Origin: Rhizobium sp. FKY42
Lineage (GTDB): Bacteria > Pseudomonadota > Alphaproteobacteria > Rhizobiales > Rhizobiaceae
Length of the DNA: 64,000 bases
Direction of reading: 5' to 3'
Assembly: GCF_005222835.1 (NCBI RefSeq)
Contig: NZ_STGA01000029.1
Span: forward strand, 186,001 to 250,000
Below the pieces are notes generated by a model that did not search any database, had not been told where the DNA came from, and saw nothing but the letters and a program-made list of their open reading frames with translations. Shown here piece by piece: positions 24,979 to 28,658 of this stretch. A program made the translations under genes and the position numbers. The number at the start of each line of letters is the position of its first letter. Positions within the stretch are counted from its first letter, which is position 1.

Positions 24979-25007
24979 TTGACCATTACTGGCTCTCGCG
25001 CCATAAG
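24979..25007 (+). promoter_or_regulatory. Promoter of the cysS leader
   Basis: CTTGACC with a 17-base spacer to CATAAG. The predicted start, about 25013-25015, lies only 2-4 bases before the leader ATG at 25017, so the leader peptide would be read from a leaderless or nearly leaderless mRNA, as is known for trpL in Sinorhizobium. Confidence 0.6.
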
Positions 25008-25016
25008 CTTTGCCCC

Positions 25017-25064
25017 ATGAACAAGGCCAACTGCTGCATCATTTGCGGGATTATTATTCGCTAG
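25017..25064 (+). CDS. Cys-rich leader peptide of cysS
   Basis: Fifteen codons and a stop: [15 protein letters not shown]. Three Cys codons, all TGC, lie at 25032, 25035 and 25044, just upstream of the gene for cysteinyl-tRNA synthetase. No Shine-Dalgarno precedes it, but the promoter would start transcription within 2-4 bases of its ATG. The stop codon lies in a 7-bp hairpin (25060-25076). This is the layout of a leader peptide whose translation reports the level of charged cysteinyl-tRNA. The reading frame is seen; the regulatory role is inference. Confidence 0.6.
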
Positions 25065-25157
25065 CGTTTCGCTGGCCTGGCCGTTCTCGTCTCTCGAAAT
25101 TCCAAGAAGACAAGGGAACCGGTTCCGGCCGGTGGGGGAATTTCATTCGGGAGAGAC
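25060..25157 (+). promoter_or_regulatory. Candidate translational attenuator of cysS
   Basis: Hairpin 1: gctagcg / cgctggc (25060-25066 / 25070-25076). Sequestering helix: 25089-25095 gtctctc pairs with 25151-25157 gagagac, and 25096-25103 gaaattcc pairs with 25137-25144 ggaatttc: 15 pairs with a 6-base bulge, covering the cysS Shine-Dalgarno GGGAGAG (25149-25155). Competing pairs: aggcca (25024-25029) with tggcct (25073-25078), and ctggccg (25077-25083) with cggccgg (25126-25132); the latter would open the helix. There is no T-run, so control would be at translation. All pairing was done by eye. Confidence 0.5.
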
Positions 25158-25162
25158 TGTCC

Positions 25163-26614
25163 ATGAGCCTCAAGCTCAAGCTTTACAACACGCTGACCCG
25201 CGAGAAGGCTGAATTCCAGCCAATCGACCCGAACAATGTGCGCATGTATGTCTGCGGTCCCACCGTTTATGATTTCGCGCATATTGGTAATGCGCGCCCG
25301 GTCATCGTGTTCGATGTTCTCTTCCGTCTGCTGCGCCATGTTTATGGCGAGGGACAGGTGACCTATGCCCGCAACATCACCGACGTGGATGACAAGATCA
25401 ACGCGCGGGCTTTGCGCGATCATCCGGGCCTGCCTCTCAACGAAGCGATCCGTGCCGTCACCGAGCGCACCGAGCAGCAGTTCCAGGCGGATGTGAAGGC
25501 ACTTGGCTGCCTGGAGCCGACCGTGCAGCCGCGTGCCACTGACAACATTACCCAGATGATCGACATCATCGAGAAGCTGATTGCCCGCGGCCATGCCTAT
25601 GCGGCAGAAGGCGAAGTGCTGTTCGATACGCGCTCCATGAGCGATTACGGCCAGCTTTCCAAGCGTCCGCTGGATGAGCAGCAGGCCGGTGCGCGCATCG
25701 CCGTCGATGCTCACAAGAAGAACCCCGGCGATTTCGTGCTCTGGAAGGCTTCCAGCGAAAGCGAACCCGGCTGGCCAAGCCCCTGGGGTCGTGGCCGTCC
25801 CGGCTGGCATATCGAATGCTCGGCAATGAGCGCACGCTATCTGGGCGAAACCTTCGATATTCATGGCGGTGGACTGGATCTCATCTTCCCGCATCATGAA
25901 AACGAAATTGCCCAGTCCCGCTGCGCACACGACACGCATGTGATGGCCAATGTGTGGATGCACAATGGCTTCGTGCAGGTCGAAGGCCGCAAGATGTCGA
26001 AGTCGGAAGGCAATTTCGTGACCATCAACGAACTTCTGGAAACGGAAAAGTTCGGCGGTCGCAAATGGCCAGGCGAAGTGCTGCGCCTTGCCATGCTGAT
26101 GACGCATTACAGCGAGCCGATCGACTTTTCCGTCAAGCGGCTGGAAGAGGCAGAAAAAATTTTCAAAAAATGGGCTGACACCCTTCGGTTGGTGGAATCA
26201 CGAGCAATTGTGCCTTGGAAGAATTCCATCGGCCCCGCACATTTTGGTCCGGTAGGGACGCAGTTGCTTATGTATCTACAAGAAGACTTGAATACCCCTG
26301 CATTGATTGCGGCAATTAGCAGGCTTGGCAGGGAAATCGCCGCTGGAGAGCTTGAAGCAGTTGACGATTTTATCAACTTGATTGACTTGTTGGGTTTTGA
26401 TTTCGCTCTTTTCTTCGAAGGTGAGGAAACCTCTCCCGCAGAGCAAAATTTCATCTTCACAAAAGTCCAAGAGCGCCTCGAACTGCTGAAAGCCAAGAAT
26501 TTCGCAGAAGCAGATCGAATTCGCGATGAGCTGGCAGCCAAGGGCATCCAGCTGAAGGACAGCAAAGACAAGGATACCGGCGAACGCGTCACCACCTGGG
26601 ACATGAAGCGCTAA
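25163..26614 (+). CDS. cysS: Cysteinyl-tRNA synthetase
   Basis: 483 residues from [11 protein letters not shown] with Shine-Dalgarno GGGAGAG; the frame is open 51 codons upstream, but that part is leader RNA. Class I synthetase: HIGN at 40-43, KMSKS at 277-281, zinc ligands C31, C219, H244 and E248 ([21 protein letters not shown]). It charges tRNA-Cys. The first 325 codons look like their neighbours, but from about 26,140 to 26,530 (residues about 326-455, the helical C-terminal part) the DNA turns AT-rich; one 60-base line has 25 G+C. A 38-residue membrane peptide gene follows after 15 bases. Confidence 0.97.
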
Positions 26615-26753: not shown

Positions 26754-27221
26754 ATGATGGAAGGCGTATTTACCGGCGGATGCCAGTGTGGCGCGGTTCG
26801 CTTTCGGGCTGAAAAGCTTGGAAGGGCCTCGATCTGTCATTGCCGCATGTGCCAGAAGCAGTTCGGCAGCTTCTTCGGTGCGCTCGTCACGGCTGATCAG
26901 GCACATCTCACATGGACGCGTGGGCAGCCTAGCCTCTTTCGCTCATCCGCCAAGGTGAAGCGTGGTTTTTGCCCGAAATGCGGAACGCCCCTCACCTATC
27001 AATCTGATGAGGGGGTAGAGATCGCCATCGGCGCATTCGACCACCCGGAACTCATCGAGCCGGAAATCCAGGTAAACTATAGCCATCGCTTGCCCTGGAT
27101 CGATCACCTGTTTGAGAAGACGCAGTTTTCTAGTCCTGAATACGATGCAAAATGGGCATCAGTCGAAAGCTACCAGCACCCGGACCACGATACGGCCGAG
27201 TGGCCGCCGAAGGACGAATAG
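26754..27221 (+). CDS. GFA family protein, copy 1
   Basis: 155 residues of the glutathione-dependent formaldehyde-activating (GFA) / CENP-V fold. Zinc-binding cysteines are in GGCQCGAVRF, CHCRMCQK and FCPKCGTPL. Starts at ATG ATG after AGGAGAGG; either Met is possible. Despite the family name, most members have no proven substrate. The next gene is a paralogue, and the two share an identical 16-residue C-terminus, [16 protein letters not shown], encoded by almost the same DNA. Confidence 0.9.
   Translation: MMEGVFTGGCQCGAVRFRAEKLGRASICHCRMCQKQFGSFFGALVTADQAHLTWTRGQPSLFRSSAKVKRGFCPKCGTPLTYQSDEGVEIAIGAFDHPELIEPEIQVNYSHRLPWIDHLFEKTQFSSPEYDAKWASVESYQHPDHDTAEWPPKDE
27171..27218 (+). repeat. Direct repeat copy A, 3' end of GFA gene 1
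   Basis: 48 bases that recur at 27647-27694 with two synonymous differences (ggac/ggat and gag/gaa). Encodes [16 protein letters not shown]. Confidence 0.85.
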
Positions 27222-27223
27222 CG

Positions 27224-28658
<1,435 letters not shown>

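Follow-up and report, generated by a model that had tools for sequence, protein, structure and literature searches.

A Cys-codon leader frame upstream of cysS in Rhizobiaceae: a probable ribosome-mediated attenuator

The gene for cysteinyl-tRNA synthetase in the window (the whole stretch of 64,000 nucleotides of Rhizobium sp. FKY42 analysed here) is preceded by a 15-codon frame with three Cys codons and by a series of competing RNA pairings, which together probably form a ribosome-mediated attenuator. According to the scheme that we favour, a nearly leaderless mRNA would start at the AUG of the Cys-codon peptide. With enough Cys-tRNA, the ribosome would reach the UAG and mask segment A and the 5' part of segment B, segment 1 would pair with the 3' part of B, and A would pair with B after ribosome release; segment C would then not be held by B, and the cysS Shine-Dalgarno region would stay folded and masked. 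When charged Cys-tRNA runs short, the ribosome would stall on the Cys codons and cover segment 1 (and, in some relatives, also the edge of A), B would pair with C, the Shine-Dalgarno helix would be weakened and more CysS would be made. What we infer here is where transcription starts, that the frame is translated, that it responds to Cys-tRNA and that the output works by unmasking. If the scheme is true, rhizobia and many of their relatives sense Cys-tRNA directly in controlling an essential synthetase.

Layout of the leader in the window

The elements of the leader, with the evidence on which each is placed, are as follows.

24979-24984, + strand: -35 element TTGACC, 38 nt before the leader ATG (direct sequence reading)
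25002-25007, + strand: -10-like element CATAAG, separated from the -35 element by a 17-nt spacer (direct sequence reading)
25017-25064, + strand: leader frame of 15 codons, from the ATG at 25017 to the TAG at 25062-25064 (direct reading and conservation)
25032-25034, 25035-25037 and 25044-25046, + strand: TGC (Cys) codons 6, 7 and 10 of the leader (direct reading)
25019-25029, + strand: segment 1, the leader start, with its partner at 25078-25086 (folds; co-evolution, z = -13.5)
25060-25066, + strand: segment A (GCTAGCG), which spans the stop codon, with its partner at 25070-25076 (folds; co-evolution, z = -11.6)
25070-25086, + strand: segment B, for which 1, A and C compete in three rival helices (alignments; swap test)
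25089-25103, + strand: anti-Shine-Dalgarno strand GTCTCTCGAAATTCC (folds; loop:SD pairing, with a Z of the mean of -4.2 for Rhizobiaceae outside the genus)
25112-25133, + strand: segment C, which also forms a local hairpin with D (25118-25123 x 25128-25133), the edges of C being taken from relatives (folds; B:C co-evolution, z = -7.4)
25137-25157, + strand: Shine-Dalgarno side of the masking helix, with GGGAGA at 25149-25154 (direct reading and folds)
25163-26614, + strand: the presumed regulated gene, a cysteinyl-tRNA synthetase of 483 aa with its ATG at 25163 (open reading frame), which we take to be cysS as in an earlier, sequence-only reading of this DNA and which has one match in its own genome

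The 15-codon frame with three TGC codons had been proposed in the sequence-only reading and is found there on direct inspection, 98 nt from cysS (25163). Among the 470 ATG frames of 9-22 codons on both strands of the window, it is the sole one with at least two Cys codons and TTGAC 34-39 nt upstream. Two helices of the same reading reappear in the fold of the free RNA, namely a hairpin over the leader stop (25060-25066 x 25070-25076) and a 15-bp helix covering GGGAGA (25089-25095 x 25151-25157 plus 25096-25103 x 25137-25144); the outer AAATTCC of the anti-Shine-Dalgarno strand is present, among the leaders compared, only in the window and in L082/L083. The local hairpin between C and D had been missed, and the pairing of the leader start, initially placed at 25024-25029 x 25073-25078, is replaced by 25019-25022 x 25083-25086 plus 25025-25029 x 25078-25082, as seen in the fold and in relatives. 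Taken alone, the window fold is mildly unusual (z = -1.83), 8 of 200 shuffles being equally good.

Spread of the leader and of its promoter

Comparison across relatives establishes, at the level of sequence, the frame, its Cys codons, the promoter spacing, the place at cysS and the co-evolution of the pairings 1:B, A:B and B:C. As circularity was to be avoided, leaders were picked without any Cys rule: a locus needed the GCTGG..CGTT motif downstream and, 34-39 nt ahead of an in-frame ATG, a TTGA. Of 317 loci, 157 qualify; all 157 carry at least one Cys codon, and 64 carry exactly one. Frames are found in the same genus (e.g., MKTAISICGIIIR and MNTALCTICGIIIR), in other Rhizobiaceae (e.g., MKTVICIICRKIIR, MKTSFAICGICIIG and MKTPFAITGICIIG) and in the Roseovarius locus L036 (MTGTAIIICCCIIR). 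The 117 distinct peptides of these 157 leaders consist of 12.2% Cys and 30.1% Ile. The Ile at codon -3, which in the window is the middle one of three ATT codons (25053-25055), is encoded by ATT in 127 of 138 distinct frames, and that at codon -2 by ATT in 64 and ATC in 43; the bias at codon -3 points to a constraint at the RNA level, possibly a pairing, pause or footprint effect.

A strict rule (a Cys-codon frame with a -35 element at 33-41 nt) picks out 86 of the 108 family loci (L131-L238). Among these, at least L182, L210 and L215 appear to have been scored on a wrong frame, and L175, which has a clear leader, is missed. Outside the family, 41 of 60 chosen genomes of Hyphomicrobiales are flagged, at least L288 and L295 apparently on wrong frames (L288 has a real leader close by), and at least five more have a leader-like frame lacking the promoter rule; in a wider sample of 20 chosen genomes of the class, three are flagged, one of them doubtful. 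Ten family loci (L176, L179, L181, L200, L202, L209, L212, L222, L225 and L237) have cysS but lack any short, Cys-ended frame starting with ATG within 420 nt of it on the upstream side, a possible lineage loss of the leader.

A covariance model built from 56 leaders (R1), which is tuned to Rhizobiaceae and so misses diverged copies, gives a hit at E up to 0.01 in 115 of the 151 family genomes, and at E < 1e-5 in 114, leaving 37 genomes with no strong match in a search whose filters lose weak ones. All 114 strong matches adjoin cysS on its upstream side (112 by comparing coordinates by eye, G063 and G084 by sequence), and the window's own genome has a single match. Weaker extra matches in the family comprise three opposite-strand hits on the same cysS element (G108, G084 and G111) and four hits (L319-L322) in coding sequence that, by its look, is presumably flagellar flhA. 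Across 289 genomes of the class, R1 finds seven matches including the window's, four at cysS (the window, G444, G567 and G472) and three (L325-L327) that are unlike leaders on a brief look. Neither the family nor the class search with R1 found a second target gene for the element. No Rfam family reaches its gathering threshold in the window, and nine loci gave three weak, unrelated hits.

The promoter keeps its distance to the frame. Of 186 leaders picked by peptide alone, without a promoter rule, 143 have their closest match to TTGACA at a distance of 35-38 nt from the leader ATG (85 of them at 36 nt), compared with 10 of 186 shuffled sequences, and five of the six -35 bases are matched in 169; a NATAR begins 12-13 nt ahead of the ATG in 109 of the leaders and is absent from 58. 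Judging from the -35 spacing, the leader message is probably leaderless, in line with the promoter placement of the sequence-only reading, and transcription in the window would be expected to start at about 25013-25017, at the ATG or nearly so. A generic sigma-70 scan of the window reports no promoter at its threshold and misses this one because it demands T at the -10 end.

Competing pairings and the Shine-Dalgarno region

Alignments show five conserved blocks. Block 1, the leader start, is AUGAAAACG in most leaders; block A, over the stop, reads AUUAUY-SGC-UAG-CG; block B, CGCUGGYCCGGNCGUUUUCG, can pair with 1, A or C; block C, AAACGCCCCGGCCAGC, can pair with D; and block D contains the Shine-Dalgarno sequence in one Rhizobiaceae subgroup. 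In the window and its genus, the Shine-Dalgarno sequence GGGAGA can instead pair with GUCUCUCG, located in the loop between B and C (loop:SD).

The upstream alignment in Rhizobiaceae, suggested in the sequence-only reading as a check, keeps the start, the Cys codons and the pairing, but two-sided helix changes in it are few. Paired cells reach 98.9% and 91.5% in A2 and 88.9% and 87.0% in A3, compared with 25.9-60.5% for slid partners. Column covariation in the Rhizobiaceae finds no two-sided change in the B:C structures of A2 and A3; the OFF structure of A2 has two such pairs, no more than shuffles, and that of A3 has four pairs and 13 cells, reached by 25 and 10 of 500 shuffles. Such covariation is little informative within the family because A, B and C hardly vary, and partner swapping over a broader set was used in its place.

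When native partners were compared with swapped ones in 122 non-redundant leaders, which as sampled loci are related and not independent, z was -13.5 for 1:B, -11.6 for A:B, -7.4 for B:C, -3.9 for loop:SD and -2.8 for C:SD. Reversed-partner controls gave -2.7, -0.2, -2.4, -0.5 and -1.2 for the same pairings, and non-partner controls gave -0.8 (1:C), +1.1 (1:SD), +3.8 (A:SD), +1.0 (A:C) and -1.1 (B5:SD). Part of the B:C and 1:B values is background, since their reversed controls lie below zero (-2.4 and -2.7); shared ancestry may inflate the z values, by an amount whose rough size the reversed controls would indicate. Five loci judged to be spurious (L032, L037, L048, L113 and L313) were excluded from the 122-leader swap, stall-model, terminator and loop:SD tests, and keeping them leaves the swap values similar (A:B -11.9, B:C -7.3, 1:B -13.8, loop:SD -3.7). 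The co-evolution of three rival pairings supports a ribosome-stall switch and bears out the mutually exclusive pairings of the sequence-only reading.

Modelling predicts a stall-dependent shift to B:C. With the ribosome footprint on the last Cys codon rather than on the stop, B:C pairs go up in 106 of 185 leaders and down in 10, and leader-start:B pairs go down in 108 and up in 7, a shift of the kind foreseen in the sequence-only reading. The mean B:C change is 3.4-4.1 pairs, versus 1.1-1.3 with dinucleotide-shuffled spacers (122 leaders), and as it exceeds the latter the rise is not merely an effect of the mask.

Changes at the Shine-Dalgarno sequence are smaller: on stalling, its accessibility goes up in 39 of 185 leaders and down in 13, with a mean change of about +0.03, versus about -0.006 when shuffled (122 leaders). 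A first model of 160 leaders, with another footprint and 3' end, gave 13 of 82 up and 10 down in the family sample and 18 of 30 up and 2 down in the genus sample. For the window, the partition function gives an accessibility of 0.36 at termination, 0.61 with a stall on the first Cys codon and 0.41 on the last, and with the other footprint and 3' end a rise from 0.22 to 0.46-0.54. The Shine-Dalgarno sequence of the window is paired in the folds of the free RNA and of the terminating ribosome, and remains paired at minimum energy when the A site of a stalled ribosome holds Cys codon 6, 7 or 10. Compared with shuffles, loop:SD pairing stands out only in Rhizobiaceae, with a Z of the mean of -4.2 outside the genus (n=59); over all 122 leaders Z is -2.5. 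It is weak in the genus sample alone (Z -1.3, n=9), and gives no signal in other Hyphomicrobiales (Z +0.7, n=39) or in the remaining group (Z +1.1, n=15; 13 loci of L028-L063 with L299 and L310).

The Shine-Dalgarno release put forward in the sequence-only reading draws weak support from the Rhizobiaceae loop:SD signal and the small mean gain, but the stalled minimum-energy fold of the window, still paired, speaks against it. Overall, we consider the sensor well supported and Shine-Dalgarno masking the probable output in Rhizobiaceae, the only group to which we give that grade.

Alternative readings and known attenuators

The uORFC-8-2 motif, as presented in the published description consulted, is a Cys-codon AUG uORF upstream of cysS that comprises 145 examples and was reported as confined to Rhodobacterales. 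Its tandem Cys codons usually occupy positions 14 and 15, and its two stems with a 3' U-run are read as an intrinsic terminator, making it a ribosome-mediated transcriptional attenuator (PMC8632094). The same Cys-codon switch could also act on transcription in the leaders studied here: without B:C, the downstream hairpin would terminate before cysS, as proposed for that motif. We hold this to be unlikely. Beside the U-run published for Rhodobacterales (PMC8632094), the Methylovirgula locus L019 has a textbook terminator, a GC hairpin (GUCCCUG...AGGGAC) with T6 directly at the cysS ATG, and its output may have switched to transcription; terminator-like sites occur in 33 of 89 leaders of Rhizobiaceae outside the genus, versus a shuffled mean of 21.7 and maximum of 26. 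Two class loci both score as terminator-like. Against it, no T-run follows the masking helix of the window, whose leader has its only + strand terminator-like site inside the frame, and there is no excess of terminators in the genus (14/35, shuffled mean 14.3), in other Hyphomicrobiales (9/45, 7.0) or in the L026-L080 group (1/14, 2.6). Intrinsic terminators are not general across the leaders.

Rho-dependent or mRNA-decay attenuation appears improbable. The leader exposed after the ribosome leaves the uORF would be attacked by Rho or RNase and a stall would protect it, so that pairings would matter with no need for Shine-Dalgarno masking. Such a mechanism would fit the weak Shine-Dalgarno signals outside Rhizobiaceae, and Rho has been suggested for actinobacterial Cys leaders (PMC1262725); alone, however, it leaves unexplained both the co-evolution of B with its three partners and the Shine-Dalgarno complement of Rhizobiaceae. 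Still more improbable is a reading in which the Cys codons are secondary and what functions is the peptide itself, or the Ile-rich tail of it, whether as an arrest peptide or by acting in trans. The abundance of Ile and its biased codons -3 and -2 would be in keeping with this, but the preference for ATT points to RNA rather than peptide, the peptide varies in its first half and the element is tied to cysS. Finally, the modest z of the window fold alone could be cited for a frame that arose by chance in a 5' untranslated region of the ordinary kind, but conservation over many genera and families makes this very unlikely.

The ribosome-mediated attenuator that we favour has the general features of leader-peptide systems, namely a uORF containing codons for the amino acid that the regulated gene serves (Cys in 157 of 157) and mutually exclusive pairings 3' of these codons, seen in the swap test and the state model. 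Like uORFC-8-2, the window leader lies directly upstream of cysS and is an AUG frame with Cys codons. Its tandem Cys codons are the sixth and seventh of 15, and a single Cys is present in 64 of 157 relatives. It differs from the motif as described in its Shine-Dalgarno-masking helix with no U-run after it, and in its host outside Rhodobacterales, Rhizobium and Ensifer being the best named cysS matches among those listed; the published description consulted contains nothing on leaderlessness (PMC8632094). Fourteen leaders of L026-L080, judged to be mostly Rhodobacterales, share a 35-37 nt promoter spacing, a C..I-type ending and mostly a GGGCCG-like segment. Window-type leaders most likely belong to the same regulator lineage as uORFC-8-2, with a wider range and a different output in Rhizobiaceae, because target, frame kind and, in Rhodobacterales-like loci, promoter spacing are alike, a likeness drawn from the published description.

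More tentatively, all of these may descend from one ancient alphaproteobacterial device that controls cysS in both Hyphomicrobiales and Rhodobacterales. In this device the Cys-codon frame would be leaderless, and its start region would compete with two other partners for one segment. Many lineages would have reduced the sensor to a single Cys codon, and the output would have switched, with the sensor unchanged, between Shine-Dalgarno masking (Rhizobiaceae) and intrinsic termination (e.g., L019 and the published Rhodobacterales). If true, the published motif belongs to a wider family, which would provide natural cases for comparing how the same stall sensor acts on transcription or on translation, and a single-Cys leader would test the minimum codon number of a ribosome sensor.

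Leaderless polycysteine uORFs that respond to Cys by translation attenuation have reportedly been described in mycobacteria (Canestrari et al. 2020). They resemble the present leaders as leaderless short Cys-codon frames, but belong to cysteine biosynthetic genes in Actinobacteria and not to cysS; they would show that the principle works in translation. Within rhizobia, the trpL (rnTrpL) leader of Sinorhizobium meliloti is a leaderless, translated 14-codon leader peptide and part of an attenuator (PMC10117765), which makes it alike as a leaderless leader peptide in a rhizobium but different in lying upstream of trpE as a tryptophan (transcription) attenuator. The sequence-only reading knew of no translational leader-peptide attenuator described for cysS in rhizobia. 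A literature search of titles and abstract openings in an open-access library found no description of a rhizobial cysS leader, and the main text of the S. meliloti Ribo-seq paper mentions neither cysS nor cysteine; a cysS motif of Rhodobacterales has, however, already been published (PMC8632094). Apparently new beyond the published principle are the spread to Hyphomicrobiales, the leaderlessness, the frequent single-Cys sensors and the probable translational output.

Two further observations concern the neighbourhood of the element. Four loci of the same genus (L085, L097, L099 and L101) carry a palindromic, repeat-like insert of about 100-120 bp between segment C and the cysS Shine-Dalgarno sequence, the rest being conserved. 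Downstream of cysS in the window, at 26754-27697, two adjacent similar frames of 155 and 181 aa have an identical 16-residue ending, which suggests a tandem duplication.
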